Assembly: GCA_037013685.1 (NCBI GenBank)
Contig: CM072919.1
Location: 3,597,616-3,661,615, forward strand
DNA: 64,000 nucleotides
DNA from: Acridotheres tristis
Lineage: Eukaryota > Chordata > Aves > Passeriformes > Sturnidae
Direction: 5' to 3'
Both the position numbers and the translations under genes were made by a program. The notes under the pieces were generated by a model. The model had not been told where the DNA came from. It ran no database searches and saw only the letters and a program-made list of their open reading frames with translations. This document shows, one piece after another, positions 1 through 27,184 of the stretch; the stretch's first letter is position 1; every line of letters starts with the position of its first letter.

Positions 1-139
1 AAATCAGTTTAAATCTGGAGGAGGCCTGGAGGGCTTTGGGGCTGATCTGGGGTGGCTTTGTCACCTCTGTCACCCCCCGGAGCAGGAGTGAAAACAAAGG
101 TGGGGGGACAGTCATGTGATGGCCGGGCCCCAAAGGTCA

Positions 140-2147: not shown

Positions 2148-2179
<32 letters not shown>

Positions 2180-3986: not shown

Positions 3987-4318
3987 CTTCCCTGGAAAAA
4001 AAAGGGGGAATTTCTTGGGAATGCTTCAGGCTTCCCTGGAAAAATGTGGTGAGTAAAAAAAGGGATAAATTCACTGGGGCTGTAGGATTTATAAGAAAAA
4101 AGGGAGGAATTCCTTGGGAATGCTTCAGGCTTCCCTGGAAAAATGATTTTAGGGAGTTTTTAGGGAGATTTTGGGAGTTTTTAGGGAGATTTTGGGAGTT
4201 TTTAGTGAGTTTTTAGGAAGTTTTTAGAGAGGTTTTAGGGAGTTTTGCCACCCTGCAATGGCTCCTGCTCCCACGCCACAGAAATCTGGAGGTCTGAAAG
4301 GAGGTGAGGAGAGAGGGG

Positions 4319-4450
<132 letters not shown>

Positions 4451-4664
4451 AAAATAGAAACAAACAAAAAAAAAGAAATAAAAACTTGCTGCAGTCAGGG
4501 AAAAATTCAATGGCTCATTGAGGCGCGGAGCTGGGGCTGCAGGAAGGGAGGAGGGAAAATGGAGCCGGCTTTGTTCGCGTCCAGACACGGACAGAGCCCG
4601 GCCCCAAAGCCGAGCTCTGCTCCCAAAAACCGTGAGGTCATCCCGAGAAACAGGGACGGGCTCG

Positions 4665-5568
4665 GGGACAGCGATCCCTGCTCGGGGACAGCGATCCCGG
4701 CTCGGGGACAGCGATCCCTGCTCGGGGACAGCGATCCCTGCTCGGGGACAGCGATTCCTGCTCGGGGACAGCGATCCCTGCTCTGGGACAGCGATCCCTG
4801 CTCGGGGACAGCGATTCCTGCTCGGGGACAGCGATCCCTGCTCGGGGACAGCGATCCCTGACCGGGGACAGCGATCCCTGCTCGGGGACAGCGATTCCTG
4901 CTCGGGGACAGCGATCCCGGCTCGGGGACAGCGATCCCTGCTCGGGGACAGCGATTCCTGCTCGGGGACAGCGATCCCGGCCCTGGATCAGCGATCCCGG
5001 CTCTGGATCAGCGATCCCGGCCCTGGATCAGCGATCCCGGCCCTGGATCAGCGATCCCGGCCCTGGATCAGCGATCCCGGCCCTGGATCAGCGATCCCGG
5101 CTCTGGATCAGCGATCCCGGCCCTGGATCAGCGATCCCGGCTCGGGGACAGCGATCCCGGCCCTGGATCAGCGATCCCGGCCCTGGATCAGCGATCCCGG
5201 CTCTGGATCAGCGATCCCGGCTCTGGATCAGCGATCCCGGCTCTGGATCAGCGATCCCGGCCCTGGATCAGCGATCCCGGCTCTGGATCAGCGATCCCGG
5301 CTCTGGATCAGCGATCCCGGCCCTGGATCAGCGATCCCGGCCCTGGATCAGCGATCCCGGCTCTGGATCAGCGATCCCGGCTCTGGATCAGCGATCCCGG
5401 CTCTGGATCAGCGATCCCGGCTCGGGGACAGCGATCCCGGCCCTGGATCAGCGATCCCGGCTCTGGATCAGCGATCCCGGCTCTGGATCAGCGATCCCGG
5501 CTCGGGGACAGCGATCCCGGCCCTGGATCAGCGATCCCGGCCCTGGATCAGCGATCCCGGCTCTCCCA
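4665..5568 (+). repeat. Phase-locked 20-bp minisatellite with two unit types
   Basis: About 45 units without indels. Type A is GCGATCCCTGCTCGGGGACA, dominant to 4980; type B is GCGATCCCGGCCCTGGATCA or CTCTGGATCA variants, dominant after. The perfect phase keeps all frames open; this is not a coding gene. Confidence 0.95.
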
Positions 5569-5861
5569 ATGTGCTCCCCCCGCCTTTCCTGGCTCCGGGC
5601 TCGCTCCCAGGAGCTGTCGGTGGTTCCTGGCCCCGCTCCAGCCGGGGGGAGCTGCTCCATCCCAAAATCCGGTGGCTTTGGAGACCCTGGGGCTCCTCCA
5701 TCCCCGAATTCCCAATCCTGGTGGGCTTGAGGGACCCTGGAGCTGCTCCATCCCCGATTTCCCAATCCCAAATCCTGGCAGGTTTGGAAACCCTCGGGCT
5801 GCTCCATCCCCAAATTCCCAAATTCTGGCAGGTTTGAGGACCCTGGAGCTGCTCCATCCCA

Positions 5862-6208
5862 GGGATGAAATGGGGTCCTGGAAGGGTAGAGAGGATCCTC
5901 AGGGAATAAATGGGGTCCTGGAAGGGTAGAGAGGATCCTCAGGGATGAAATGGGATCCTGGAAGGATAGAGAGGATCCTCAGGGATTAAATGGGATCCTG
6001 GAAGGGTAGAGAGGATCCTCAGGGATTAAATGGGGTCCTGGAAGGGTAGAGAGGATCCTCAGGGATGAAATGGGGTCCTGGAAGGATAGAGAGGATCCTC
6101 AGGGATGAAATGGGGTCCTGGAAGGGTAGAGAGGATCCTCAGGGAATAAATGGGGTCCTGGAAGGGTAGAGAGGATCCTCAGGGAATAAATGGGGTCCTG
6201 GAAGGGTA
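5862..6208 (+). repeat. 40-bp minisatellite
   Basis: About 8.5 copies; each holds the palindrome GAGGATCCTC and GGGGTCCTGGAAGG. Confidence 0.95.
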
Positions 6209-6395
6209 GGAGTTCCTGGAGTTAGAGGAGTGGCAGCTCAGAGCTATGAGAGGAATGGGAAGAATTCCCGGAGCCGCGCGGGCTCAGCGCATTCCTCTGA
6301 TATTTCTGTGCTGCCGTCACCGTCCGGCGGCGGGCAGGTGGCACCGGGGGCGGGCATGTGGCACCGGGGACGGGCAGGTAGCACCGGGGGACACG

Positions 6396-6735
6396 CCGGG
6401 ATGGCACACACCGGGACTGGGACTGGCACACACCGGGACTGGGACTGGCACACACCGGGACTGGCACATACCGGGACTGGGACACACCGGGACTGGCACA
6501 CACCGGGACTGGCACACACCGGGACTGGCACATACCGGGACTGGCACACACCGGGACTGGCACATACCGGGACTGGCACATACCGGGACTGGCACATACC
6601 GGGACTGGCACACACCGGGATGGGACACACCGGGACTGGCACACACCGGGACTGGCACATACCGGGACTGGCACATACCGGGACTGGCACACACCGGGAC
6701 TGGCACACACCGGGACTGGCACATACCGGGATCCG
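6396..6735 (+). repeat. 16-bp minisatellite
   Basis: Copies of CACACACCGGGACTGG or CACATACCGGGACTGG, about 20 units. Confidence 0.95.
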
Positions 6736-6809
6736 TGCCAGGGCCGCTCCTCAGGCCCAGACAGGCCCGGCTGCCCGGCCGGTTTCACCCTCGTGACCCG
6801 AACCCGAAG

Positions 6810-7080
6810 CCGCGTTTCGGTTGGAAAAGGCAGGGAAAGGTTTGGGGTGAAGGAAAAAGCAGGGAAATGTTTGGGGTGAGGGAAAAAGCAGGGAAGTGTT
6901 TGGGGTGAGGGAAAAAGCAGGGAAATGTTTGGGGTGAAGGCAGGGAAATGTTTGGGGTGAAGGAAAAAGCAGGGAAAGGTTTGGGGTGAAGGAAAAAGCA
7001 GGGAAAGGTTTGGGGTGAAGGCAGGGAAATGTTTGGGGTGAGCCGAGGGGAAAGGTTTGGGGTGAGCCGAAGGGAAAGGC
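6810..7080 (+). repeat. GGTTTGGGGTGAAGG minisatellite
   Basis: Copies of AAAGCAGGGAAATG plus TTTGGGGTGAAGG, about 31 bp, purine-rich. Confidence 0.85.
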
Positions 7081-7239
7081 AGGGACGGGTCTGGGCGATC
7101 CCGCCGGGAAGCGCCGGGAATGAAGCAATAAATCAATAAACCAATAAATCAATGGTTGAAAGGGCAGAGACTGCTCAGATCCGTGACGGGAGAGGAGGAG
7201 GAGGAGGAGGAGGCGCCTCCTCCAGCACGGAGCCGCTGC

Positions 7240-8232
7240 TGAGTCACGGCTCGGCAGAGCCAGCGCTGCTGTCACCGCTCTGTCACCGCTCTGTCACCGC
7301 TCTGTCACCGCTCTGCCACCGCTCTGCCACCCCGCTGCTGCTGCGCCAGGCTGACTCAGGACCTGCGCGGGTTTGCGCTGCTTTTTCCCAGAAAAGAAAA
7401 AAAAAAAAAAGAAAAAGCCCAAATGGGGACTTTTGGCAGAGTTCAGGGCTCGGGGACAAAGCGGCTCCGTGGGGCTGTGCGGGACACGGGCAGGGTGGCA
7501 CAGCCTCGGCTCCCCGCACGTTTTTGGGAACGTGAGCCGCAAAACATCGGCTTTGTGCCAGCGAGAGCTTGGGAATTTAGGGATGGAGCCCAGGAGGGAT
7601 TTGGGGCTGTTCCCGAGTCAGAGCGAGCTGCTGCGGGACGTGGCTCTGAGCATTAGTCCAGACAATCCAAACGGGTTTAAAAAACAAATCCTGCTCATGC
7701 CAGGCTTTCTCCTGAGCTCGGCGCTTTCCCTAAAATAGGCAGGAGCGCTCCTGGGAGGGGTTTGTGCCGCAGCCAGACCCTCCTTGGATGTGTTTGTGTC
7801 ATTCCCAAACCTCGCCTGTCTGCATTTCCCAACCTCCCTCCCGGCTGTTTGTGTCCTTGACCTCGGGATGATCCCTCCCTGCCTCTTGTGTTCCCTGAAT
7901 TTTGATCGATTTTTTTTTTTTTTTTCTTTTTAATCGTGGTTTTTAGCGCTGCAGCGTTTTCCAGCTGCTGGGAAATCTTTCGTTGTGCTGGGATCTGCCA
8001 GATCCCCGAGCTGCAGGAGGAGCAGCCCTGGGAGCTGCAGGGCTCGGTGACTTCATGGCTGCTGGAATAAATCCCAGACACGGCGTGAGGAGCCACCAGA
8101 GCCATTCCCGAAAATCGGCTTGTCCCCGAATGCTGCTGCTGCTGCCGGGACAGAAATTCGGGAAGATTTGTTTGTGCTGAGCGAGGGCTGGGGGTGACTC
8201 AGCGAAAGGAGAGCAGGGCTGGTGCTGAGTCA
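7240..8232. promoter_or_regulatory. Cluster of AP-1/MAF-NRF2-type sites in the GNG7 upstream region
   Basis: TGAGTCA or TGACTCA occurs at 7240-7246, 7352-7358, 8195-8201 and 8226-8232. Three read TGACTCAGC on one strand, the MARE/ARE core. The surrounding 7080-8450 is unique, non-coding sequence with a T-run at 7911-7925. Confidence 0.45.
7263..7333 (+). repeat. 11-bp TGTCACCGCTC repeat
   Basis: Six copies directly between two AP-1-type sites. Confidence 0.85.
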
Positions 8233-8457
8233 CGGATCCAGGGAAGGGAAAAGGCAGCGCTGGCCCCGCTCCAGCAGCAGCAGCACAAACTCCAGAGGCT
8301 CTGCCCCCCTGGCACGGAGGAATTCTGGCGCTGTGGGGCTGATTTCTTCACTTTTGGAGGGTGTGCAGGAGACCTGGGTGTCCCTGCAGGCGTCACATCC
8401 CGGCCCTTTCCCAAACACCGATTGCTTTAAAACATGGGCAAAGGGATGATGGAGCTG

Positions 8458-8720
8458 GATCCGAACTGGGCAGTGCTGGGTCCAAACTGGGCAGTGTAAG
8501 ATCCAAACTGGGCAGTGTTAGATCCGAACTGGGCAGTGCTGGATCCGAACTGGGCAGTGCTGGATCCGAACTGGGCAGTGTTAGATCCGAACTGGGCAGT
8601 GCTGGATCCGAACTGGGCAGTGCTGGGTCCAAACTGGGCAATGCTGGGTCCAAACTGGGCAGTGCTGGATCCGAACTGGGCAGTGCTGGGTCAAGACTGG
8701 GCAGTGTTGGATCCAAACCA
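8458..8720 (+). repeat. 21-bp minisatellite
   Basis: About 12 copies of GATCCGAACTGGGCAGTGCT plus one base. The 7-codon periodicity makes open frames on both strands. Confidence 0.95.
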
Positions 8721-9039
8721 GGTGGTGACACTGCTGGTGGCACTGCTGGTGACACTGCTGATGTCACTGCTGATGTCACCTGCTGTGCCTGTCACACACC
8801 TCGCTCCTCTCCCTGGCTCCTCTCCCAGCCCCGTTACCTCCCCCTGCCAGTGCCACGGGACATCTCCAGGGTTTGTTTTGGCTTCTCCAGCTCCCGAGGC
8901 CCGGGGTGGCTCCATGGGCCAATGGCCCGTGGTTGTTAATGAGGTTCCTGCTTAATTGTTCACCCTGGGAGCAGCCCGGGAGTGTGGCTGAGGGACCTCA
9001 CCCAGTGCAGGGCCTGCTGGGGAACCAGGGGGAACTGGG

Positions 9040-9835
9040 AGGGATTCGGATCCCAGTGGAATCTGGGACTGGGAGCAATGCTGGGCCCACTGTGGGATTT
9101 GGGACTGGGAGGGATTCAGATCCCACAGTGGAATTTGGGGCTGGCAAGGATTCAGATCCCACAGTGGAATTTGGGGCTGGCACGGATTCAGATCCTACTG
9201 TGAGATCTAGGAGTGGGAACAATGTAGATCCCACAGTGGGACCAGTGAAATTTGGGACTGGGAGTGATTCAGATCCCAGTGGAATCTGGGAGTGGGAGCA
9301 ATGCTGGTCCCCCTGTGGAATTTGGGACTGGGAGGGATTCAGGTCCCACTGTAGGACCAGTGGAATTTGGGACTGGGAGGGATTCAGATCCCACTGTGGA
9401 ATTTGGGACTGGGAGGGATTCAGATCCCAGTGGAATCTGGGAGTGGGAGCAATGTGGATCCTGCTGTAGAATTTGGGACTGGGAGGGATTCAGGTCCCAA
9501 TGTGGAACCTGGGACTGGGAGTGATTCAGATCCCACTGTGGGACCAGTGAAATTTGGGACTGGGAGTGATTCAGACCCCTGTGGAATCTGGGAGTGGGAG
9601 CATTGTGGATCCTGCTGTAGAATTTGGGACTGGGAAGGATCCAGATCCCCCTGTGGGGCTCAGCACCGACTGCTGCTTCTCTTTAATCTTGGAGAGGGAA
9701 AAGGCACCGCTGGGAAGAGGGAAACAGGGATTCACTGGGATGCACTGGGATGCACTGGGATTCTCTGGGATTCTCTGGGATTCACTGGGATGCACTGGGA
9801 TTCTCTGGGATTCTCTGGGATTCTCTGGGATGCTG
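9040..9835 (+). repeat. Duplicated repeat module, copy 1
   Basis: A GGGATTCAGATCCCACTGTG array (9040-9655), a unique linker (9649-9727) and a GGGATTCTCT array (9728-9835). The same order recurs 1182 bp downstream. 9836-10260 is unique sequence with no recognised gene. Confidence 0.85.
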
Positions 9836-10261
9836 GTGATCTGCAGAACAGCTCAAACCCCATGAAACCATAAACCAGGAAGGAAAACATCTCCGCCTTG
9901 CCAAGGATCTGTTTTTCAAACACTCCTTTAGTTCCTCCCCACACCGTCCTTCCTCCAGCCGGGCTGGGATCCCCAGGATGCTGCAGGGACAGGGATGGGG
10001 GTGGGAACAACTCCCAGAAGTTCTCTGAACTCTCGCTGGGCTGATTCATCAGCCTGGCTCCATAAACAGGAAGCTGAGAAAGTACAGCCAGGTGATCCTG
10101 TGCTGCTGCAAGCACTTGGAAAACACGAATTCCTTGCATTTTTGTCCTCCCAGCTGCCTGCTAGCTCTTGTCCAGGTGAGGGCTGTGCTGGCACAGTCTG
10201 CAGCAGGAAAGGCCCTCGAGTTCATGGCTTTAGAAGGAGCTTTTCCCTGCTCCTGATCCCA

Positions 10262-11190
10262 GTGCAGAACCTGGGAATGGGGGGGGATTCAGATCCCACT
10301 GTGGAATTTGGGATTGGGAAGGATTTAAATCCCACAGTGGGATCTGGGATTGAGAGGGATTCAGATCCCACAGTGGGATCTGGGATTGGGAAGGATTTAA
10401 ATCCCACAGTGGGATCTGGGATTGAGAGGGATTCAGATCCCACTGTGGAATTTGGGATTGGGAAGGATTTAAATCCCACAGTGGGATCTGGGATTGAGAG
10501 GGATTCAGATCCCACTGTTGAATCTGGGATTGAGAGGGATTTAAATCCCACAGTGGGATCTGGGATTGAGAGGGATTCCACTGTGGAATCTGGGATTGGG
10601 AAGGATTTAAATCCCACAGTGGGATCTGGGATTGAGAGGGATTCAGATCCCACTGTGGAATTTGAGAGTGGGGACTGTGTAGATCCCACAGTGGAATTTG
10701 GGATTGGGAAGGATTTAAATCCCACAGTGGGATCTGGGATTTGGGACAGTGTAGATCCCACAGTGGAATTTGGGATTGAGAGGGATTTAAATCCCACAGT
10801 GGGATCTGGGAGTGGGAAAGATTCAGATCCCCCTGTGGGGCTCAGCACCGACTGCTGCTTCTCTTTAATCTTGGAGAGGGAAAAGGCACCGCTGGGAAGA
10901 GGGAAACTGGGATTCACTGGGCTTCACTGGGATTCACTGGGATTTTTCTGGGACTCACAGGGGTTCTCTGGGATTCTCTGGGATTTTTCTGGGACTCACA
11001 GGGGTTCTCTGGGGTTCTCTGGGATTCTCTGGGATTCTCTGGGATTTTTCTGGGACTCACAGGGGTTCTCTGGGGTTCTCTGGGATTCTCTGGGATTTTC
11101 TGGGGTTCTCTGGGATTCACTGGGATTCACTGGGGTTCACTGGGATTTTCTGGGGTTCTCTGGGGTTCTCTGGGATTCTCTGGGATGCAG
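10262..11190 (+). repeat. Duplicated repeat module, copy 2
   Basis: A GGGATTTAAATCCCACAGTG array (10262-10830), a linker nearly identical to copy 1 (10829-10906) and a GGGATTCTCT / GGGACTCACAGGGG array (10907-11190). 11191-11811 is unique, with a TGAGTCAGC site at 11790-11798 and no gene. Confidence 0.85.
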
Positions 11191-11811
11191 CTGCTTTGTT
11201 TTGCAGCTCCTCAGACCCGGAGCAGGACGTTCCCGCAGGGAACAGCCGCCTTCCTCCTCCGGTTTTCCACAGAACCAGACCTGATTTCACCCTGGCGGTT
11301 TCCCCGTGTTGGCTTGACTTCACTTCCAGGACGGGAGGGGCGGAGATTCCCAAACAATCCCGTGAATTCAGGGAATCCTGGCGTGCCGGAGCCGGGAACG
11401 CGGCGGGGCTGAAGCGCCGCTTGTTTCCCTCCCCATTCCCGGGATCTGCTCAGGGATTGAGGAGCTCAGAACGCGCCGGGAAAAGCGGCTGCCAAGCAAA
11501 ACAATCCCCGAGAGTGTCTCTGTGGTCTGGAATGAACTCCCGAAATGTCTAAACATAGGCGAGACGGCGAGGATTTGGGATGGGACAGGCGCTCCCAGCC
11601 CCATCCCGCCGGCTTTGAAGCTGCCAGGGCCGGGCAGAAAATCGGAGGAGTCTGTAATTAAGGCTTGGGAAGGCTCAGGGGGCGGCTGGGAGCGCCGGCT
11701 CCGTCCCGCCCCGTGTTTGCTTTGGCTCCTTCCCCTCCTGGAATCGTCTCCAGGTCGGCCGGGGGAGCTGCGAGCTGCCCCCGGTGCCCTGAGTCAGCGG
11801 CGGGAGGGGAC

Positions 11812-13085
11812 AGCAGTGTCACCTCCACAGGGTGACACAGAGGGGACAGACTGGGGGAGAGTGACAGCAGTGACACCTCCACAGGGTGACACAGAGGGGA
11901 CAGGCTGGGCAGGAGTGACAGCAGTGACACCTCCACAGGGTGACACAGAGGGGACAGGCTGGGCAGGAGGTGACAGCAGGGACACCTCCACAGGGCTGTC
12001 ACACAGGGGACGGGCTGGGCAGGAGTGACAGCAGTGACACCTCCACAGGGCTGTCACACAGGGGACGGGCTGGGCAGGAGTGACAGCAGTGACACCTCCA
12101 CAGGGTGTCACACAGGGGACAGGCTGGGCAGGAGTGACAGCAGTGACACCTCCACAGGGTGACACAGAGGGGACAGGCTGGGGGGGAGTGACAGCAGTGA
12201 CACCTCCATAGGGTGACACAGAGGGGACAGGCTGGGCAGGAGGTGACAGCAGTGACACCTCCACAGGGTGACACAGAGGGGACGGGCTGGGCAGGAGTGA
12301 CAGCAGTGTCACCTCCACAGGGTGACACAGAGGGGACAGGTTGGCAGGAGTGACAGCAGTGACACCTCCACAGGGTGACACAAAAGGGACGGGCTGGGCA
12401 GGAGTGACAGCAGTGACACCTCCACAGGGTGTCACACAGGGGACAGGCTGGGCAGGAGTGACAGCAGTGACACCTCCACAGGGTGACACAGAGGGGACAG
12501 GCTGGGCAGGAGTGACAGCAGTGTCACCTCCACAGGGTGACACAGAGGGGACAGGCTGGGGGGGAGGTGACAGCAGTGACACCTCCACAGGGTGACACAC
12601 AGGGGACAGGCTGGGCAGGAGTGACAGCAGTGACACCTCCACAGGGTGACACAGAGGGGACAGGCTGGGCAGGAGTGACAGCAGTGACACCTCCACAGGG
12701 TGACACAGAGGGGACAGGCTGGGCAGGAGTGACAGCAGTGTCACCTCCACAGGGTGACACAGAGGGGACAGGCTGGGCAGGAGTGACAGCAGTGACACCT
12801 CCACAGGGTGACACAGAGGGGACAGGCTGGGCAGGAGTGACAGCAGTGACACCTCCACAGGGTGACACAGAGGGGACGGGCTGGGCAGGAGTGACAGCAG
12901 TGACACCTCCACAGGGTGACACAGAGGGGACAGGCTGGGCAGGAGTGACAGCAGTGACACCTCCACAGGGTGACACAGAGGGGACAGGCTGGGCAGGAGT
13001 GACAGCAGTGACACCTCCACAGGGTGACACAGAGGGGACGGGCTGGGCAGGAGTGACAGCAGTGACACCTCCACAGGGCTGTCAC
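11812..13085 (+). repeat. 54-bp minisatellite
   Basis: About 23 copies containing GTGACAGCAGTGACACCTCC and GGGTGACACAGAGGGGACAG. The 54-bp period is 18 codons, so long open frames arise on both strands. Confidence 0.95.
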
Positions 13086-13094
13086 GGCCCCGTG

Positions 13095-13890
13095 GGCAGG
13101 TGGGACACGGCCCCATGGGGATGGTGGACATGACCCCATGGGCAGGGTGGACACAAATCCCATGGGAAGGTTGGACATGGCCCCATGGGAAGGTTGGACA
13201 TGATCCCATGGGACACAAATCCCATGGGCAGATTGGATGCAAATCCAATGGGCAGGATGGACACGGCCCCATGGGGATGGTGGACGTGACCCCATGGGCA
13301 GGGTGGACACAAATCCCATGGGAAGGCTGGACATAAATCCCATGGGAAGGTTGGGTGTGATCCCATGGGAAGGTCGGACATAAATCCCATGGACACAACT
13401 CCATGGGAATATTGGACACAAATTCCGTGAGAAGGTTGGATGTGATCCTATGGGAAGGTTGGACACAAATCCCATGGACAGAACCCCATGGGAAGGTTGG
13501 ACACAAATCCTATGGGAAGGTTGGATATAAATCCCATAGGCAGGTTGGATGTGATCCCATGGGAAGGTTGGATATAAATCCCATGAGAATGTTGGACACA
13601 GATCCCATGGGAATATTTGATATAAATCCCATGGGAATGTTGGATGTGATCCTATGGGAATGTTGGATGTGATCCTATGGGAATGTTGGATGTGATCCCA
13701 TGGGAATATTGGATGTGATCCTATGGGAATATTGGATATAAATCCCATGGGAATGTTGGATGTGATCCCATGGGAATGTTGGACACAAATCCCCTGGGAA
13801 TGTTGGATGTGATCCCATGGGAATATTGGATATAGATCCCATGGGAAGGTTGGATATAAATCCCATGGGAATGTTGGATGTGATCCCATG
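13095..13890 (+). repeat. 24-bp minisatellite with CCCATGGG palindromes
   Basis: Units such as AATCCCATGGGAATGTTGGA; almost every unit has the CCCATGGG palindrome. Confidence 0.9.
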
Positions 13891-13997
13891 GACACAGCCC
13901 CAGGTTCCAGGGACACCAAGGCCACCAGGGCTGGCCCAGACGGGCCCAGGAGCCCCCAGAGCCCCCCTGGGTGCCCGGGCAGAACCTGCCCCCCCCC

Positions 13998-14635
13998 AGA
14001 ACCAGGAGGATTTTTCCTTGGATCAGAACCTCCCTCTTTTCCCAGAACCAGGAGGATTTTTCCATTCCTTGGATCAGAACCTCCCTCCCTTTCCCAGAAC
14101 CAGGAGGATTTTTCCATTCCTTGGATCAGAACCTCCCTCTTTTCCCCAGAACCAGGAGGATTTTTCTGTTCCTTGGATCAGAACCTCCCTCTTTTCCCAG
14201 AACCAGGAGGATTTTTCTTCTCTCTGGATCAGAACCTCCTCCCTTTCCCTGACCCAGGAGGATTTTTCTGCTCCTTGGATCAGAACCTCCCTCCTCCCCC
14301 AGAACCAGGAGGATTTTTCCTTGGATCAGAACCTCCCTCCCTTTCCCAGAACCAGGAGGATTTTTCCATTCCTTGGATCAGAACCTCCCTCTTTTCCCCA
14401 GAACCAGGAGGATTTTTTTGCTCTCTGGATCAGAACCTCCCTCCCTTTCCCAGAACCAGGAGGATTTTTCTGTTCCTTGGATCAGAACGTCCCTTTCCCA
14501 GAACCAGGAGGATTTTTTTGCTCTCTGGATCAGAACCTCCCTCCCTTTCCCAGAACCAGGAGGATTTTTCTGCTCCTTGGATCAGAACCTCCCTCCCTTT
14601 CCCAGAACCAGGAGGATTTTTCTGCTCTCCTCAGC
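13998..14635 (+). repeat. About 51-bp minisatellite with acceptor-like segments
   Basis: About 12 copies containing CCAGGAGGATTTTTC, TTGGATCAGAACCTCC and a polypyrimidine-CAG run (CCCTCTTTTCCCAG). 14636-14934 is unique, without a gene. Confidence 0.9.
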
Positions 14636-14934
14636 AGAGCTTTGAACAGAATTCCCTGGAAAGGGGATCCCGAGGGCTCGTTCTGGGAAAAGGGAACTTG
14701 AAACAAGCTCAGGAAACTGAGCGGGGCCGGCAGAGCTCGCTGGGGACACGCCACACCCCGGGCTGGCCTTGGGGACAACAGAAATGTTAATTTTAATTTC
14801 ATTTTTAATTTTTCTGACACTGATATCCCCCCGGGAGAGCACTGCTCGAGACTTGAGGCCTTGGAGGAAACCTCCAAAATTCGAGTGCTGGAGTTAAAAT
14901 CACGAGTGTGCAGTTGAATAAAGGGTTTGGAATA

Positions 14935-15745
14935 TGGGGGGTTTAATATAGAGTGATGTATTAAAATATATAGTAATGTATTAAGTGTATTAAATAGGTT
15001 AAGTATGTTAAACATGTTAAGTATATTAGATATGTTAAATATATTAAATGTGTTAAATATGTTAAGTATATTAAGTATATTAGGTATGTTATGTATATTA
15101 TATATAGTAAGTGTGTTAATTATGTTTAGTATATTAAGTATATTAGATATGTTAAGCATATTAAATATATTAAATGTGTTAAATATGTTAAGTATATTAA
15201 GTATATTAGAGATGTTAAGTATATTAAATATGTTAAATATATTCAATATATTCAATTATTCAATATATTCAATATATTAAATATGTTAAATATATTCAAT
15301 ATATTGAATATATTCAATTATTCAATATATTCAGTGTATTCAATATGTTAAATATATGGAATATATTGAATATATTGAATATATTCAATTATTCAATATA
15401 TTCAATATATTAAATATGTTAAATATATTCAATATATTCAATTATTCAATATATTCAATTATTCAATATATTCAATATATTCAATATATTCAATATATTC
15501 AATTATTCAATATATTCAATATGTTAAATATATTGAATATATTCAATTATTCAATATATTTGATATATTCAATATATTCAATATCTTCAATATATTCAAT
15601 ATGTTAAATATATTCAATATATTCAATATATTCAGTATATTCAATTATTCAATATATTCAATATATTCAATTATTCAATATATTCAATATATTCAATATA
15701 TTCAATATATTCAATATATTCAGTTATTCAATATATTAATAAAGT
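14935..15745 (+). repeat. AT-rich array
   Basis: Nearly pure A/T with units such as AATATATTCAAT and TTAAATATGTTAAGTA. It contrasts sharply with the GC-rich surroundings. Confidence 0.9.
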
Positions 15746-15947
15746 AATAGGTATGGGATAAAATTGAAGTTCCTGGGCATCTCCCCATCTTCCTTTTCCC
15801 GTTCTTTTTTCACGAGTTTTCCGTAGGGATTTCTGCCTGGATAATGGATTTAGTGCTGCCCTGCAGGTCCCAGCACTCGAGTTACTGGCTTCAAAGTGTC
15901 AATAATATCAATGTTATTGGCTCTTTAGTGGGCTGTTTGCCAGGGGG

Positions 15948-18900
15948 TTTCCATGGGTTTTCCAGGGTTTTTCCATGTTTTTCCAGGGTTTTTCCATGGG
16001 TTTTCCATGGGTTTTCCATGGGTTTTCCATGGGTTTTCCATGTTTTTTCAATGGTTTTTCCATGTTTTTTCCATGGGTTTTTCCATGGGTTTTCCATGTT
16101 TTTTCCATGGGTTTTTCCATGGGTTTTTCCAGGATTTTTCCAGGGTTCTTCCATGGGTTTTTTCCAGGATTTTTCAAGGGTTTTTCCAGAATTTTCCATG
16201 TTTTTTCCGGGGTTTTTCCATGGGTTTTCCCATGGTTTTTCCATGATTTTTCCATGGGTTTTCCCATGGTTTTCCATGGGTTTTCCTGGGTTTTTGCATG
16301 GTTTTCCCATGTTTTTTCCAGGGTTTTTCCATGGGTTTTCCATGTTTTTTCCATGGGTTTTTCCATGGGTTTTTCCAGGATTTTTCCAGGGTTCTTCCAT
16401 GGGTTTTTTCCAGGGTTTTTCAAGGGTTTTTCCAGAATTTTCCATGTTTTTTTCCGGGGTTTTTCCATGGGTTTTTCCATGGGTTTTTCCATGGGTTTTC
16501 CATGGGTTTTTCCATGGGTTTTCCATGGGTTTTTCCATGTTTTTTCCATGGGTTTTTCCATGGGTTTTTCCATGTTTTTTCCATGGGTTTTTCCATGGTT
16601 TTTTCCAGGATTTTTCCAGGGTTCTTCCATGGGTTTTTCCAGGATTTTTCCAGGGTTCTTCCATGGGTTTTTTCCAGGATTTTTCAAGGGTTTTTCCAGA
16701 ATTTTCCATGTTTTTTCCGGGGTTTTTCCATGGGTTTTCCCATGGCTTTTCCATGGTTTTTCCATGGGTTTTCCCATGGTTTTCCATGGGTTTTGCAGGA
16801 TTTTTCCATGGGTTTTCCCATGTTTTTTCCAGGGTTTTTCCATACTTTTTCCAGAGTTTTTCCATGGTTTTTTCATGGGTTTTCCCATGTTTTTCCCATG
16901 GTTTTTCCATGATTTTTCCGTGGGTTTTTCCAGGGTTTTTCCATGGTTTTTCCAGAGTTTCCCATGCTTTTCCCATGGTTTCTCCATGGTTTTTCCAGGG
17001 TTTTTCCAGGGTTTTCCATGGTTTTTTTGCAGTTTTTCCCATGCCTTTCCCGTGCTTTTCCCATGTTTTTCCCGTGGTTTTTACAGGTTTTTGCATGTTT
17101 TTTTCCAGGGTTTTTCCAGGGTTTTCCCATGGTTTTTCTGTGTTTTTTTCCATGCTCTTCCCCATGTTTTTTCCATGCTTTTTCCATGGTTTTCCCCATG
17201 GTTTCTCCACGGTTTTTCCAGGGTTTTTCCATGGTTTTTCCATGGGTTTTCCTGGGTTTTTCCAGGGTTTGTCCATGGTTTTTCCATGGTTTTCCAGAGT
17301 TTTTCCCATGTTTTTTCCAGAGTTTGTCCATGCTTTTTTCCATGGTTTTTCCATGGGTTTTCCATGGTTTTTCTATGGTTTTTCCATGCTTTTTCCATGG
17401 GTTTTTTCCATGGTTTTTCCATGGTTTTTTGGCAGGGTTTTCCATGTTTTTTTCCATGGTTTCTTTGCAGGGTTTTCCCATGGTTTTTCCATGGGTTTTT
17501 CCAGGGTTTTCCATGTTTTTTTTTACAGGGTTTTTCCATGGGTTTTCCATGGGTTTTTCCAGGGTTTTTCCAGGGTTTTTTTCCCAGGGTTTTTCCATGG
17601 GTTTTCCATGGGTTTTTCCAGGGTTTTCCATGGGTTTTTCCAGGGTTTTCCATGGGTTTTTTACAGGGTTTTCCATGGGTTTTCCATGGTTTTTTTCCAG
17701 GGTTTTCCATGGTTTTTTCCATGGTTTTTCCATGTTTTTTTTTACAGGGTTTTTCCATGGGTTTTCCATTGGTTTTTCCAGGGTTTTTCATGTTTTTTTC
17801 CCAGGGTTTTTCCATGGTTTTCCATGGGTTTTTCCAGGGTTTTCCATGGGTTTTTACAGGGTTTTCCATGGTTTTTTTACAGGGTTTTTCCATGGGTTTT
17901 CCATGGGTTTTTCCATGGGTTTTCCATGGTTTTTTTCCAGGGTTTTCCATGGTTTTTTCCATGGTTTTTCCATGTTTTTTTGGCAGGGTTTTCCATGGTT
18001 TTTTCCATGGTTTTTTTGCAGGGTTTTTCCAGGGTTTTCCATGGTTTTTTCCATGGTTTTTCCATGGTTTTTTTGCAGGGTTTTTCCATGGTTTTTTCCA
18101 TGGTTTTTTTCCAGGGTTTTTTCATGGGTTTTTCCATGGTTTTTCCATGTTTTTTTTGCAGGGTTTTTCCATGGTTTTCCATGGTTTTTTTGCAGGGTTT
18201 TTCCATGGTTTTTCCATGGGTTTTTCCAGGGTTTTCCATGGTTTTTTTTACAGGGTTTTTCCATGGGTTTTCCATTGGTTTTTCCAGGGTTTTTCATGTT
18301 TTTTTCCCAGGGTTTTTCCATGGTTTTCCATGGGTTTTTCCAGGGTTTTCCATGGGTTTTTACAGGGTTTTCCATGGTTTTTTTACAGGGTTTTTCCATG
18401 GGTTTTCCATGGGTTTTTCCATGGGTTTTCCATGTTTTTTTTCCAGGGTTTTCCATGGTTTTTTCCATGGTTTTTCCATGGTTTTTTGGCAGGGTTTTCC
18501 ATGGTTTTTTCCATGGTTTTTTTACAGGGTTTTTCCAGGGTTTTCCATGGTTTTTTCCATGGTTTTTCCATGGTTTTTTTGCAGGGTTTTTCCATGGTTT
18601 TTTCCATGGTTTTTTTCCAGGGTTTTTTCATGGGTTTTTCCATGGTTTTTCCATGTTTTTTTTGCAGGGTTTTTCCATGGTTTTCCATGGTTTTTTTGCA
18701 GGGTTTTTCCATGGTTTTTCCATGGGTTTTTCCAGGGTTTTCCATGGTTTTTTCCATGGTTTTTCCATGGTTTTTTGGCAGGGTTTTCCATGGTTTTTTC
18801 CATGGTTTTTTTGCAGGGTTTTTCCATGGTTTTCCATGTTTTTTTTGCAGGGTTTTTCCATGGTTTTTTGGCAGGGTTTTCCATGGTTTTTTCCATGGTT

Positions 18901-19245
18901 TTTTTGCAGGGTTTTTCCATGGTTTTCCATGGTTTTTTTGCAGGGTTTTTCCATGGTTTTCCATGGGTTTTTCCATGGTTTTTTTCCAGGGTTTTCCATG
19001 GTTTTTCCATGGTTTTTTTTGCAGGGTTTTTTCCATGTTTTCCCATGTTTTTCCCATGCTTTTCCCATGCTTTTCCCAGGGTTTTCCATGGTTTTTCCAT
19101 GGGTTTTTCCATGCTTTTCCCATGGTTTTTCCAGGGTTTTCCATGATTTTCCATGGTTTTCCATGGTTTTTTTTCCAGGCTTTTCCATGTTTTTTTTGCA
19201 GGGTTTTCCCCACGCTTTCCCCACACTTTTCCCACATTTTTTTTG
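15948..19245 (+). repeat. 3.3-kb TTTTTCCATGG array abutting the first GNG7 coding exon
   Basis: Hundreds of TTTTCCATGG(G) units mixed with TTTTTCCAGGG, TTTTTTGCAGGG and TTTTACAGGG variants. The strand is almost all pyrimidine plus ATGG/AGGG, leaving all forward frames open (to about 1100 codons); this is not coding. It ends in the real acceptor at 19247-19248. Confidence 0.95.
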
Positions 19246-19248
19246 CAG

Positions 19249-19299
19249 GATTCTCCTGCGTGGGGCCCGGGGCTGATGGCACACCATGTCCAGCACTAA
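19249..19299 (+). promoter_or_regulatory. GNG7: Short 5' UTR segment of GNG7 with overlapping upstream ORF
   Basis: The exon begins at 19249. An upstream ATG at 19276 opens a 7-codon frame (MAHHVQH) that stops at 19299, overlapping the true start (19286) in another frame. The main ATG has A at -3, the upstream one only G at +4. It may lower translation of GNG7; this is an inference. Confidence 0.5.
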
Positions 19300-22200
19300 C
19301 AACATCGCCCAGGCCCGCAAGCTGGTGGAGCAGCTCCGCATCGAGGCCGGCATCGAGAGGATCAAGGTGAGCCCCAAAAAAAATATCCCGAATTTCCCCC
19401 TGGAGACCCGGAAAAAAAAAAAAAAAAGGGGTTTGGAACCCTGTAAGTGAGGCAGGAATAAGGTGTGGACGCTTTCACGGGTGTTTTTAGGACAGGAAGG
19501 AAAAGTTTGTTGGGGATGCACACTCGGGTTTGGGCTGGGAAGGACAGCGACACACAGGGAAGGGTTTTTTTGGTTTTTTTATTTTTTTTTTGGGGGGGGG
19601 GAAAAAAGGTTAATTTGTGTTTAAAGTGTGTTATGTGCAGCCAGGACAGCACAAGAGCTCATGGGAAAATTGGGAAAAACATCCACCTCAGGATGGATCC
19701 CACGGGAAAGACACCCAGTTGATTTTTATTGTGAATTTTATTCTGTTTGTCACCGTGTTGTCACCCTGGGAGATTTCCTCCCTAACTGAAGCTGCAGTCA
19801 GCTTGGGAATGGAGCTGAGAGTCAGGAGAAATCCAGGCCTGGAAAAGAATTCCCAAGCTGGAATTCCCTAAATCTCTCTGGATGTGTGTGTCTGTGGTCA
19901 CTGTGCTGCAAAGAGAGAGAAAGGACAGCAAAAAAGAGGGAAAAAAGCCAATTTATTGTATTCCACTCTGGTTTTTTACTGTATTATCACCCTGGGAGAT
20001 TCCTCCCTAACTGAAGCTGCAGTCAGCCTGGGAATGGAGCTGAGAGTCAGGAGAAATCCAGGCCTGGAGAGAATTCCCAAGCTGGAATTGCCCAGCTCTG
20101 TCAATGTGTGTGTGCACAGTTTTATAGATTGATCCACAATTCCAAGAGCAGAGAAAAGGAGATTGGTTCAGAGAGAAGACACCCCATTGCCAGGGCCTCA
20201 AAAAATGATTTATTTTGTTATTAATTCCTTTTTATTTTGACCAAATCATCACCCTGGGAGAAATTCTCCCTTAGCCTTGAGCTGGACCAGAACAAGAGCT
20301 GAGAAGCTCCAGCCTGGAATATTTTCCAGTCTGTCATTTTTTTACTTTCTCAATTTGTGTCCCACATTCCTCCCTCACTGGGATTCCAACATTCCAGGAT
20401 CAGGATTTCCTGCTGAGGATCCTCCAGGATCAAGGTTTGGTGACCAGGACAAATGGGATGGGTTTGGAATTTTAGGATTGGTGTAAGGAAAGAATTCCCT
20501 GCACAGAGCAGCTCCCTGGAAGTGCCCAAGGAGGGAAAAAAAACCCAGGAACCTCCAGCTGTGGCTCCATCCCTGCCCTGTGTCATTAAAAAAATTAAAA
20601 TTAAAAAACGGGATTGGGATTTCTCCAGAGCCTCCAGAACCCCCCTCCTTGGGATTTTGGAGCATCCTCAGATCCCTCCCTTCCCAAAAATCCAGCCTGG
20701 AATGAAACCAGAAATAATGGATCCTGAAATTCTGCAAACCTCAACGAGGGGCTGCACTCAGGGAATTCTTTTCCTTCACTTTTTTCATCCCAAATCCCTG
20801 AAAAACGAAAATATCCCTGGGAAATCTTTAAGGGAAAAGCTGGATGGAAATCCCTAAAAAATCCTGCAAGTGCTGGTGACTCCAAGCTGGGAATATTCCC
20901 AGAAATTCCTGATTTTATTCCCCAAATATTCAGGTCTCCAAAGGCTCCTCAGAGCCCATCCCAAATCCCTGAAAAACATGGATAAAAATGAAAAATCCAA
21001 ACCATGAAAAACATGGATATTCCACAATATTCCTTTCAAATCTCTTCTGGGTTATTTATCCACACTATAAAAATGGATTTTTCCATTTCCAATTCCCATT
21101 TTTCCTCCTCATCTACATAAAATTTCTCCTGGGAAAAGCTCGATGTCAAATCCCCAAAAATCCTGGAAGAGTCTGGGAATATTCCCACCAATTCCTCCTT
21201 TTTTTTTTTTTGTTTTTTCCCCCAAATTCCAGGTGTCCAAAGCCTCCTCAGAGCTCATCCCAAATCCCTGAAAAACATGGATATTCCACAATATTCCCTT
21301 TCAAATCTCTTCTGGGTTATTTATCCACACTGAAAAAATGGATTTTTCCAATTCCCATTTTTCCTCCTCATCATCTCTGAAAAACATGGATACAACAATA
21401 TCCCTTTCAAATCTCTTCTGGGTTATTTATCCACACTGTAAAAATGGATTTTTCCACTTCTAATTCCCATTTTTCCTCCTCATCTCCATAAAATTTTTGC
21501 TGGTGAAAGCTGGATGTCAAATCCCCAAAAATCCTGGAAGAGTCTGGGAATATTCCCAGAAATTCCTGGATTTATTCCCCAAATATTCAGGTCCCCAAAG
21601 CATCCTCAGAGCTCATCCCAAATCCCTGAAAAACATGGATACAACATTTCTTCTGGGTTATTTATCCACACTGTAAAAATGGATTTTTCCACTTCTAATT
21701 TCTAATTTTCCTCCTCATCTCCCCAGAATTTCTCCTGGGAAAAGCTCGATGTCAAATCCCAAAAATCCTGGAAGAGTCTGGGAATATTCCCAGAAATTCC
21801 TGGATTTATTCCACAATATTCCTTTCAAATCTCTTCTGGATTATTTATCCACACTGAAAAAATGGATTTTTCCATTTCCAATTCCCATTTTTCCTCCTCA
21901 TCTACATAAAATTTTTGCTGGTGAAAGCTGGATGTCAAATCCCCAAAATCCTGGAAGAGTCTGGGAATATTCCCACCAATTCCTGTTTTTTTTTTTTGTT
22001 TTTTTCCCCGAATTCCAGGTGTCCAAAGCCTCCTCAGAGCCCATCCCAAATCCCTGAAAAACATGGATACAACAATATTCCTTTCAAATCTCTTCTGGAT
22101 TATTTATCCACACTGTAAAAATTGATTTTTCCATTTCCAATCCCCATTTTTCCTCCTCATCTCCCCAGAATTTCTCGTGGAAAAAGCTGTTGGTCAAATC

Positions 22201-23262
22201 CCCAAAAATCCTGGAAGAGTCTGGGAATATTCCCACCAATTCCTCCTTTTTTTTTTTTTTGTTTTTTCCCCCAAATTCCAGGTGTCCAAAGCCTCCTCGG
22301 AGCTCATCCCAAATCCCTGAAAAACATGGATATTCCACAATATCCCTTTCAAATTTTTTCTGGGTTATTTATCCACACTGTAAAAATGGATTTTTCCACT
22401 TCTAATTCCCATTTTTCCTCCTCATCTCCATAAAATTTCTCCTGGGAAAAGCTCGATGTCAAATCCCCAAAAATCCTGGAAGAGTCTGGGAATATTCCCA
22501 GAAATTCCTGGATTTATTCCACAATATTCCTTTCAAATCTCTTCTGGATTATTTATCCACACCATAAAAATGGATTTTTCCACTTCTAATTCCCATTTTT
22601 CCTCCTCATCATCCCTGAAAAACATGGATACAACAATATTCCCTTTCAAATCTCTTCTGGGTTATTTATCCACACTGTAAAAATGGATTTTTCCACTTCT
22701 AATTTCTAATTTTCCTCCTCATCTCCATAAAATTTCTCCTGGAAAAAGCTCGATGTCAAATCCCCAAAATCCTGGAAGAGTCTGGGAATATTCCCAGAAA
22801 TTCCTGGATTTATTCCACAATATTCCTTTCAAATCTCTTCTGGATTATTTATCCACACCATAAAAATGGATTTTTCCATTTCCAATCCCCATTTTTCCTC
22901 CTCATCATCCCTGAAAAACATGGATACAACATTTCTTCTGGGTTATTTATCCACACCATAAAAATGCACTGTAAAAATGGATTTTTCCACTTCTAATTCC
23001 CATTTTTCCTCCTCATCTCCATAAAATTTCTCCTGGAAAAAGCTCGATGTCAAATCCCCAAAAATCCTGGAAGAGTCTGGGAATATTCCCACCAATTCCT
23101 CCTTTTTTTTTTTTTGTTTTTTCCCCCGAATTCCAGGTGTCCAAAGCCTCCTCGGAGCTGATGAATTACTGTGAGCAGCACGCCCGGAGCGATCCTCTCC
23201 TGGTGGGAGTTCCTGCTTCGGAAAATCCCTTTAAGGACAAAAAGCCCTGCACCATCCTATAG
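19286..23262 (+). CDS. GNG7: Guanine nucleotide-binding protein gamma-7 subunit, two coding exons
   Basis: Coding exons are 19286-19366 (27 codons) and 23137-23262 (41 codons plus TAG); the joined protein is 68 aa, the usual GNG7 length. It begins [17 protein letters not shown] and ends in a CaaX box, Cys65-Thr-Ile-Leu, where the final Leu predicts geranylgeranylation and membrane anchoring. The N-terminal helix (about residues 5-25) forms a coiled coil with G-beta; the NPFKDKKPC stretch before the CaaX box is typical of the GNG7/GNG12 group. The family role is to pair with G-beta in heterotrimeric G proteins, GNG7 mainly with G-olf in brain. The first coding exon starts at 19249 after a TTTTTTTTGCAG acceptor; the second follows ATTCCAG. 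The intron is phase 0. Further 5' non-coding exons are expected upstream but I could not place them. The tail-to-tail neighbour is GADD45B, matching mammalian order. GNG7 is favoured over GNG12 by length and N-terminus. Confidence 0.95.
19758..20330 (+). repeat. Three-copy intronic duplication (about 230-260 bp)
   Basis: TCACCCTGGGAGAT starts copies at 19761, 19987 and 20248. Each is preceded by a TTTATT block; copies 1 and 2 share over 100 bp of near-identical sequence. Confidence 0.85.
20880..23136 (+). repeat. Intronic tandem repeat containing partial copies of the GNG7 last exon
   Basis: Units share TGGAAGAGTCTGGGAATATT, GGGTTATTTATCCACACTGT and CATTTTTCCTCCTCATC. Five units also include acceptor plus exon start, with exon copies beginning at 20934, 21233, 21591, 22019 and 22282. 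The true exon begins at 23137. Confidence 0.9.
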
Positions 23263-23364
23263 CTCTGGAATGTTCCAGAAGGAAATCCCCGAGGCAGCCT
23301 TTGGATCCAGGCTCCTCCAGCTGCTGCCAGGGGTGAAAAAGTCAAAGGTGGCTTGGAGCAGAAC

Positions 23365-24590
23365 TTAAAAAAAAAAAAAAAAACCCCCGAGAAAAACAAA
23401 AAATTAAAAAAAAAAACAGAGAAATACAAAAAAAACACAGAGAAAAACAAAAAAAACCCGGAGAAATACAAAAAAACCCGAGAAAAACAAAAAATTTTAA
23501 AAAACCCAGAGAAATACAAAAAAAACCACACAAGAAAAGCAAAAAAATCCCCGAGAAAAGCAAAAAAAAAACCCGGAGAAAAACCAAAAAAAAACCCCAG
23601 AGAAATACAAAAAAAAAAACCCCAGAGAAAAACAAAAAATTAAAAAAAAACCCAGAGAAATACAAAAAAACCACAGAGAAAAACAAAAAAAACCCCCGGA
23701 GAAATACAGAAAAACCCGAGAAAAACAAAAAATTAAAAAAAAAACCCAGAGAAATACAAAAAAAAACCACACAAGAAAAGCAAAAAAATCCCCGAGAAAA
23801 GCAAAAAAAAAACCCGGAGAAAAACCAAAAAAACCCCAGAGAAATACAAAAAACCCCAGAGAAAAACAAAAAAAAACCGCAGAGAAATACAAAAAAACAC
23901 ACAAGAAAAACAAAAAAAACGAGGAAAAAAAAAACCCCAGAGAAAAACAAAAAAAAACACACAAGAAAAACAAACAAAAAAAGCCCTCGAGAAAAACAAA
24001 AAAAACCCCAGAGAAAAACAAAAAAAACCCAGAGAAAAACAAAAAAAACCCCAGAGATATACAAAAAACCACACAAGAAAATTTAAAAAAACCGAGAAAA
24101 ATAAAAAAAAACCCAGAGAAAAACAAAAAAAACAAACCCAGAGAAATACAAAAAAACCCGAGAAAAAAAAAAAAAAAAAACAGAGAAAAAAAACCAAAAA
24201 AAACCTCAGAGAAATACAAAAGAACACACAAGAAAAACAAAAAAAAACCCAGAGAAAAACAAAAAAAAACCCCGGAGAAAAAAAAAAAAACACACAAGAA
24301 AAGCAAAAAAAAAAACCCGAGAAAAACAAAAAAAAAACCAGGGAAAAACAAAAAAAAAACCCCAGAGAAATACAAAAAACCCACAAGAAAAACAAAAAAA
24401 ACCCGAGAAAAACAAAAAAAAAAACCCAGAGAAAAACAAAAAAAAAACAGAGGAAAAAAACAAAAAACCCCAGAGAAATACAAAAAAAACCCACAAGAAA
24501 AGCAAAAAAAATCCCGAGAAAAACAAAAAAAACCCCAAGAAAAATTAAAAAAAAAACACCAAGAAAACCAAACAAAATAACAAAATCACA
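23365..24590 (+). repeat. A-rich repeat after the GNG7 stop codon
   Basis: About 60 imperfect units of CAGAGAAATACAAAAAAACC and CGAGAAAAACAAAAAA. Confidence 0.9.
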
Positions 24591-25344
24591 CACCCCCCCC
24601 CAAAAAAAAAACCAATCCTGGAAAAAAAAAAAAAAAAAAAATCGATTTGGAATCTGGGCGGGAGGGGGTTTTGGGGGTTTTTAGGGAAGGGAAGGGGGTG
24701 GTTGGTTCCTGGTGGGGTGAAAAATTGGGATCAGGAGTTTTCAAATTTCTTCGGGGTTGAGGGAGGAAAAAAAAGGGGGTTCGGGAGGGGATTTTTTTTT
24801 TTTTTTTCATTGGGATATTTGGATTTGGGAAAAGGGAGATGGAGGAGGAGGAGCTGAATTCCCGGTGGGATGTGAGAGCTGGATCCAATCAGGAATTTCC
24901 TCTGGAGAAGGGACGAGGTTGGGAGAGATTTTGTAGAAAATCAGTTTAAAAAAACAAAAAAAACCAAAACAAAACAAACCCCCCCAAAAAATCCCAAATC
25001 CGGGTGGAAAAATCCCTGTTGGGATCCAGGGAAAAAAAAAAAAAAAAAAGTCCCAGGAGGAATTTTGGGGATCCCCAGGGATCCTTGGGGGGATCTCTGA
25101 GCTGTCCCCAAATTTGGGGAAGGAGGGAAGAAACTTCCTGATGCATCCAGAATATTGGGGAAAAATCGCTTTTTAGGGGAATTTCGACCCAAAATGGGGA
25201 ATTGCCGGCGTTTCCCATCTCCTTTTTCTGGATTTTTCCCGCTGGGAAATGCGCAGGGAGGGCGGGGACCGGTTCTGTTCCCGTCCTTTGGGAATTCGGG
25301 ACTGGGATTAACTGGGACGGCTTTGGGTGTCACTGGGGGAGGCG

Positions 25345-26420
25345 GCAGGAAAAGGGGGACGGGGAAAAGGGGAAATAGGGAAAAGGGGAAATAGGGAAAA
25401 GGGGAAATAGGGAAAAGGGAAAAGGGAACAGGGAAATAGGGAAAAGGGAACAGGGAAAAGGGAACAGGGAAAAGGGGAAATAGGGAAAAGGGGAAATAGG
25501 GAAAAGGGGAACAGGGAAAAGGGGAACAGGGAAAAGGGGAAATAGGGAAAAGGGAAATAGGGAAAAGGGAACAGGGAAAAGGGGAAAGGGAAAAGGGGAA
25601 ATAGGGAAAAGGGAAATAGGGAAAAGGGGAACAGGGAAAAGGGGAAATAGGGAAAAGGGAAATAGGGAAAAGGGGAAATAGGGAAAAGGGGAACAGGGAA
25701 AAGGGGAACAGGGAAAAGGGGAAATAGGGAAAAGGGAAACAGGGAAAAGGGGAAATAGGGAAAAGGGAACAGGGAAAAGGGAACAGGGAAAGGGGGAACA
25801 GGGAAAAGGGAACAGGGAAACAGGGAAAAAGGGGAACAGGGAAAAAGGGGGAACAGGGAAAAGGGGAATCCGGGAAAAAAGGGAACAGGGAAAAAGGGGG
25901 ACAGGAAAAAAGGGGGAACAGGGAAAAAGGGGAACATGGAAAGGAGAATCCAGGGAAAAAGGGGATCCAGGAAAAGGAGGAAGAGGAAAAAGGGGGAACA
26001 GGAAAAAAGGGGGATCCAAGGAAAGGAGATCCAGAGAAAAGGGGGAACAGGAAAAAGGGGGAGCAGGAAAAGGGGGATCCAGGAAAAAGGGGGAACAGGG
26101 AAAGGGGATCCAGGGAAAGGGAAAGGGCCAGGAAAAGGGAGAGCAGGAAAAGGGGGAACAGGAAAAAGGGGAAGCAGGAAAAGGGGGGATCCACGGAGAG
26201 AGGGATCCAGGAAAAAAAGGAGATCCAGAGAAAGGAGAATCCAGGGAAAGGGGCAGGAAAAGGGGGAACAGGAAAAGAGGGATCCTGGAAAAAGGGGGAT
26301 CCAGGGAAAAGAGGGAACAGGAAAAAGGGAGATCTAGGGAAAGGGGATCCTGGAAAAGGGGAATCCTGGAAAAGGGGAATCCTGGAAAAGGGGGATCCTG
26401 GAAAAGGGGGACCTGTCCGG
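25345..26420 (+). repeat. Purine-rich GGGAAAAGGGGAAATA array
   Basis: Units change from GGGAAAAGGGGAAATA to GGATCCAGGAAAAAGGGGGA at about 25.9 kb. Confidence 0.9.
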
Positions 26421-27184
26421 GCCACCAGCTCTGTCGGGAAGGGACAGATCCCGGGATTTGGGTGTGGTGTCCCCAATCCATGTCCCCAGAGCCCGTCCCG
26501 GGGCTCAGCAGCTCCTGGGAGAATTCCCAGAATCCCAAAATCCCGAAATCCATGAGGCTGCAAAAAAAGATTTCCCGAGACCACCGTAGGGAGAGGCCGT
26601 TCCCGGTTATCCCGAGCACAGGAATTTGGGAAGAGGAGGGATAAAAACACCACCAGCCACGCCTGACGTGAAATCCTGGGAGTTTCCCCATTCCCCCCCA
26701 AAAAAAAAACCCTTTGGATTGGGTTAGGAATGCCAAGGATTCCATCAAGAATTCCCGTGGGACGGGATTTTGCAATTCCCTGGATTGCGGTGGCGCAGGC
26801 TGGACACCGGCAGCTGCTTTTCCAAATTCCTGGAATTCCCCGGGAGCTGCTCCGTGTCCCCTCCCGGCTGCGGGAATGTCGCGATTCCTTTTTATTCCGT
26901 GTTTTCATTCCCCGTCATTTGCCATTGAAACGAGAGTCGGGGAAACGCCGCGTTTTTAACGCTAAAACCGGTGCGGCTTTTCCTGGGAAAACTCCCGCAA
27001 TTCCAGGGCTCGGGAATGTTCCCCCCTCCATCCCTCAGAGAAGGGAAAACGGGATCATTTCCCAAGAATTCCCTTCGCTGTCCCTCAGCCCCAGCAAAGC
27101 CTTTTCTGGAGGGTTTGATCCCAAATCCCAAATCCCAAATAATCCCATCCAAGCGGAATCACGCGGCCACTCCCGAGTCCAGCC

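Follow-up and report, generated by a model that had tools for sequence, protein, structure and literature searches.

Why should the last intron of a gene repeat the beginning of the exon that follows it, complete with splice acceptors? The question is raised by a G-protein gamma subunit gene in a 64-kb stretch of Acridotheres tristis DNA (64,000 nt, the whole of the DNA analysed here and referred to below as the window). A sequence-only reading had pointed out five such copies and had described them as a natural decoy-acceptor system. The gene is recognized by a Pfam GGL domain (E 5.2e-23) on the joined 68-residue protein. We take it to be GNG7, the name that comes from the earlier reading and from general knowledge of the family; among the matches listed, gamma-2 is the name of 60 of the 77 best solved-structure matches of the protein. 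Both coding exons are on the plus strand. The start-codon exon (19249..19366, read from the sequence together with the GGL match of the joined protein) has its ATG at 19286 and contributes 27 codons, and its donor, AAG/gtgagc at 19367, scores 10.64. The real last coding exon (23137..23262) has 126 nt of coding sequence up to TAG and is preceded by an acceptor AG at 23135-23136, which scores 10.44. Splice sites were scored with simple acceptor (-20 to +3) and donor matrices of standard vertebrate frequencies and not with a trained program, and the acceptor matrix is blind to the full T tract and to the branch point.

The surroundings of the two exons are rich in repeats. On the 5' side, 72% of the stretch 1-19248 is tandem repeat according to TRF. 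It includes an array of an 11-nt unit, TTTCCATGGTT and variants, at 15948-19196, before the first coding exon, and 13 copies of T(7-8)GCAGG at 18011-19190, which are similar to the core of the real acceptor (19249). On the 3' side of the stop codon there are A-rich arrays with units of ~21-30 nt (23368-24558), and five ATTAAA or AATAAA words within 23261-26500 are candidate polyadenylation signals of the G-gamma gene.

We searched both strands of the window for the opening 23 nt of the last coding exon, tolerating 7 mismatches at most. There were six matches on the plus strand, at 20934 (4 mismatches), 21233 (1), 21591 (4), 22019 (2), 22282 (0) and the real exon at 23137 (0). No match was found on the minus strand of the whole 64-kb window, nor any on either strand besides the five copies and the real exon. 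When the intron was shuffled 100 times with its dinucleotides preserved, nothing closer than 7 mismatches was obtained; 2 shuffles reached that value, and in the remaining 98 the best match had 8-10. The five copies proposed from the letters of the sequence are thus borne out by the window scan and the shuffles. All of them begin at exon base 1 with an acceptor attached, and all are in the intron preceding the source exon. In every copy an AG stands directly before the exon piece, and the phase 0 reading runs from the exon piece into IPNP and a TGA stop, as had been claimed. The claimed 39-residue length of a product spliced to a copy is also correct, given the 27 codons of 19286-19366 plus 12. 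The peptides of the first two copies, however, had been swapped: copy 1 (20934..20956) encodes VSKGSSEP and copy 2 (21233..21255) VSKASSEL. Copy 3 (21591..21613) encodes VPKASSEL, copy 4 (22019..22041) VSKASSEP and copy 5 (22282..22304) VSKASSEL, all five on the plus strand.

The polypyrimidine or AT-rich tracts noted earlier in front of the copies allow the acceptors to be sorted into two types. Copies 2, 4 and 5 and the real site have a long run of T with AATTCCAG and CCAG, in agreement with the likeness to the true site already remarked on, while the tract of copies 1 and 3 is AT-rich, with ATATTCAG and TTCAG. Scoring of the six acceptors, which the sequence-only reading had suggested, placed copies 2 and 5 level with the real site (10.44) and copy 4 above it (11.01); copies 1 and 3 scored lower (7.39), all on the standard-frequency matrix. 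Copy 5 is the closest counterpart of the real boundary. Its 23 nt are the same as those of the real exon in 23 of 23 positions (46.1 bits), the only differences in the 45 nt upstream are a single substitution and an additional T in the tract, and the two sequences diverge beyond exon base 23.

Six acceptors proved too few. Two further acceptor-like sites on the plus strand, neither of them an exon copy, score 11.63: one inside a repeat unit at 21707..21726 (AG 21725-21726, candidate start 21727) and one at 22149..22168 (AG 22167-22168, candidate start 22169). They are identical, ctcatctccccag/AATTTC, and most other units read CATAAAATTT at this place. The real acceptor is therefore not the strongest in its intron, being outscored on the standard-frequency matrix by 21727 and 22169. 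The stretch 15948-19260, before the first coding exon, has 92 AG sites, of which 54 score at least 10.44 and nine score above the real acceptor at 19249; there, 72 sites score at least 10, against a mean of 30 and a maximum of 39 in 100 shuffles. With 54 of 92 AG sites at or above the score of the last exon's acceptor, high-scoring false acceptors are frequent in the gene's repeat-rich introns, and the exon copies do not stand out in this respect.

The copies are part of a larger array. TRF detected tandem arrays of period 106, 183, 265 and 296 across 21264-23100, and assigned 44% of the last intron to tandem repeat, compared with 51% (0.506) of the whole window. Nine units carry a block with GGGAATATTCCCA: in five the block leads to an exon copy, in one to the real exon, and in three directly to the next unit. 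The last three were missed in the sequence-only reading. At 21780..21823 (plus strand, as are the other two) the unit ends without acceptor or exon piece, its AT-rich tract being fused to the next unit, and the unit ends at 22488..22531 and 22784..22827 likewise have no exon piece. Up to their fusion points all three resemble the AT-rich acceptor type, and their joints seem to fall in short common words, for example ATTCC.CAA.ATTC and CCTCCTCA. A second block occurs 11 times in the array and is in some cases joined straight to post-exon sequence. The leftmost unit (20786..20956, plus strand, 171 nt) extends from the intron piece CATCCCAAATCCC through the acceptor and exon piece of copy 1 and is the most diverged; its block differs by 28.1-34.4% from the other eight, a figure that includes a part of uncertain alignment. 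The intronic block of the real unit, on the other hand, differs by 2.6-9.6% from those of seven other units, so that the real boundary is close to the copies. In an unrooted FastTree tree of the blocks the leftmost unit sits on a long branch beside the 21780 unit, where the alignment is uncertain, and such a tree does not give a firm age order.

How could the array have arisen? All five copies break off at one and the same exon position and run on into CATCCCAAATCC. A T run followed by CATCCCAAATCC is also present where the array begins on the left (20786), and no direct-repeat family, among those listed, covers 20548-20784. For these reasons the first unit probably extended from 20786 to about exon base 22-23. 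A segment of ~171 nt, made up of the intron end and 22-23 nt from the start of the last coding exon, would have been tandemly duplicated, creating a junction between exon position 22-23 and intron CATCCC at which the two sides have no more than 1 nt in common. Subsequent duplication, deletion and recombination within the array could then have given the nine units, five with an exon copy, three without, and the real boundary last. All five copies share one junction, a unit with that sequence stands at the left edge, and the real unit is close to the copies; on these grounds tandem duplication across the intron-exon boundary, as proposed in the sequence-only reading, is well supported. Unit 20786..20956 is likely the left remnant of the first duplication and, judging from its greatest divergence, may be the oldest. 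The copies, their common junction, the arrangement of the units and the similarity of the real unit to the copies are observed; we infer in what order the steps took place, how the DNA was repaired, how large the first unit was and that splicing is normal. The real acceptor is most likely the one still used by the splicing machinery, because no other acceptor is followed by the complete exon with the gene's 3' end.

An arrangement of this kind, strongly concentrated on dot chromosomes, has been described in the chicken under the name of exon stuttering, or sequence stuttering (PMC12954441; Genome Biol Evol 2026). There, part of an exon and its adjacent donor or acceptor are duplicated along the neighbouring intron, where they form imperfect tandem units, with exon pieces of 20-187 nt, 1-44 copies and spans of 112-23,555 bp. 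The 236 chicken introns concerned comprise 190 on dot chromosomes, 10 on other microchromosomes and 36 on macrochromosomes; in over 90% of cases the source is no more than 1 base away from the exon border, length variation among individuals is a feature of the phenomenon, and a supplementary list names 115 genes (PMC12954441). The G-gamma intron shares the exon edge and splice site repeated in the adjacent intron as imperfect tandem units with the real exon intact, sources at exon base 1, clustered units, and an intron rich in other tandem repeats. Its exon piece of 22-23 nt, its 5 copies and its span of ~2.2 kb (20934-23159, from the copies through the real exon edge) are within the reported ranges. 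It differs in that the published set is from chicken and mostly from dot chromosomes; the present case is a single sequence.

In the published screen, blastn-short matches in the adjacent intron counted if they reached 20 nt and 42.1 bits (PMC12954441). By this measure the intron qualifies as a case, through copy 5 alone (23 nt, 46.1 bits); copy 2 (38.2 bits), copy 4 (36.2 bits) and copies 1 and 3 (22.3 bits) fall below the cut. We applied the screen to 25 exon-by-intron pairs, combining five exons with five introns or flanks. The five, a part of the window's exons, are the two G-gamma exons and three predicted MAP1-family exons, whose borders were read from Pfam matches and splice motifs and are possibly off by about a base. 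One pair passed, that of the G-gamma last exon and its intron, and in the stretch before the first coding exon no match of the following exon passed. GNG7 is not named in the main text of PMC12954441, as judged by a term search, and no account of the present case was found in that main text or among the papers listed for GNG7 (20 of 645 in one listing).

The MAP1-family gene, recognized in the window by Pfam MAP1B N-terminal and MBL-like domains, has arrays of its own at exon borders. At 43574-44580 a 22-nt unit is repeated ~46 times, starting at an exon's donor (GGTAAAATGTGGG, present once); 11 exact copies read GGGAAAATGTGGG and have thereby lost the GT. A pyrimidine-rich array of a 12-nt unit (CCCTCTGCTGTC) at 45188-45848 extends as far as the likely acceptor, at 45851, of a further MAP1-family exon, and so appears to supply its pyrimidine tract. 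Elsewhere, at 59129-59506, an open frame has a weak FCH (F-BAR) match of 19.7 bits, below the Pfam cut-off of 27.8.

Comparable structures are known outside birds as mirages, the minisatellite-like duplications of intron-exon boundaries reported in 2010 for amphioxus Adh3 and the amphioxus globin genes BflGb6 and BflGb9 (PMC3087553). In BflGb6 the 3' end of an intron and the 5' part of the next exon are repeated in units of 150-160 bp, with 6 and 3 units in two haplotypes. The G-gamma array is a boundary-spanning, minisatellite-like tandem duplication of like anatomy and similar unit size. The amphioxus case, however, concerns globin exon 2 and was accompanied by RT-PCR, while the present one concerns a last coding exon and is known from DNA sequence alone. 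Introns made of tandem repeats are also found in GC-rich avian genes that are hard to assemble (PMC6792250; 2019), but in the 12 passages of that paper covered, of 26 matched by our terms, no exon-edge copies are described. Given the chicken and amphioxus reports, the class is known in two lineages, and the G-gamma intron is one more case of it, at a last coding exon.

If the copies had been retained for a function in splicing, selection might have left a trace in them. Over the first 22 nt there are nine copy-by-site differences from the real exon, seven of them at third codon positions. These reduce to five distinct changes (three at third, one at second and one at first codon positions), too few to tell whether coding-phase selection has acted on the copies. 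Beyond the exon piece, the five copies agree in all of the next 28 nt. A 31-nt run of the intronic block is, however, equally invariant in eight of the nine units (the leftmost being left out of the count), so the tail is not special, and we rejected a particular conservation of the stop-bearing sequence. Neither the exon-piece differences nor the conservation of the tail, together a weak test, gave a clear sign of selection on the copies.

These observations bear on what the copies do. In a natural decoy-acceptor system they would be used or bound by the spliceosome and would tune the output of the gene, with a truncated 39-residue product lacking the CaaX box. The AG kept in all five copies, the equal or higher scores of copies 2, 4 and 5 relative to the real acceptor on the standard-frequency matrix, and the early stop into which every copy runs would all fit such a system. 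Yet strong acceptor scores are not enriched over shuffled sequence: the last intron has 7 sites scoring at least 7, compared with a shuffle mean of 17.2 and a maximum of 27, and 5 scoring at least 10, compared with a mean of 4.2 and a maximum of 9 (200 shuffles each). Retention of the five AGs has a chance of ~0.26 without selection, by hand arithmetic from each unit's divergence from the real unit, and is thus not telling. As all five copies share one junction, their common phase and stop are one fact and not five, the stop having come along with that junction; the exon-piece differences are too few to show constraint; and the abundance of strong AG sites before the first coding exon shows such false acceptors to be common in the gene. 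RT-PCR in amphioxus, moreover, is said to suggest that mirages do not interfere with regular splicing (PMC3087553). Strong acceptor scores in this intron thus show no excess over shuffles, and in a test of low power the copies gave no clear indication of selection. A natural decoy-acceptor system is not supported by these results, and we consider it very unlikely. The same small chance is given to a more specific version, in which the array would keep renewing its false last-exon starts, and these, in competition with the real acceptor, would determine gamma-subunit output, so that expression would vary with copy number from one individual to another. Still less credible are poison cassette exons, in which a copy's acceptor would be paired with a donor inside the array before splicing went on to the real exon. 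GT sites are present after each copy, but the best of those 21 to 299 nt after copies 1-5 score 3.77, 5.14, 1.71, 3.77 and 1.71 on the standard-frequency matrix, compared with 10.64 for the real donor, and the two values of 3.77 are the CAG/GTG start of the next copy. Such weak donors make cassette use extremely improbable.

Accidental use of the copy acceptors, giving rare truncated transcripts with no selected role, is a different matter. The presence of near-identical acceptors upstream of the real one would allow it. Exon definition from the downstream exon and the polyadenylation signal should nevertheless favour the real acceptor, and we hold such use to be possible, if somewhat doubtful. 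Potential alternatively spliced transcripts are noted for the chicken cases (PMC12954441, in the main text of which the words RNA-seq and splicing are absent by term search), and the amphioxus paper mentions possible aberrant transcripts and suggests that mirage sites could act as cryptic splice sites (PMC3087553). Splicing noise of this kind is compatible with the copies being by-products, and differs from that account only in whether they are ever used. An array made or rearranged during assembly is another explanation to be weighed, given that tandem arrays are error-prone and that one amphioxus mirage appears aberrantly assembled in the genome draft (PMC3087553). Against this, the blocks differ by 2.6-34.4%, the two acceptor types alternate, and a separate, diverged unit forms the left edge. 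We regard an artefact as highly improbable: the copy number in the assembly could be wrong, but it is unlikely that the array as such is. On the reading we favour, the copies are by-products of repeat turnover (exon stuttering) and not parts selected for a function in splicing. Taken as a whole, the account of boundary duplication, turnover within the array, copies as stuttering by-products and a real acceptor in use is, in our judgement, very probably correct.

The case adds one well-resolved example to a phenomenon described for birds, as far as the literature search shows, in 2026. Its main use is as a clean natural experiment on what distinguishes a working splice site, in that copy 5 and the real site are nearly matched and differ mainly after exon base 23. 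Should the real site alone be used, the deciding information would be mainly downstream of exon base 23 or in the position of the site. The copies show repeat turnover passing through a splice site that, judged by the intact exon, still works.
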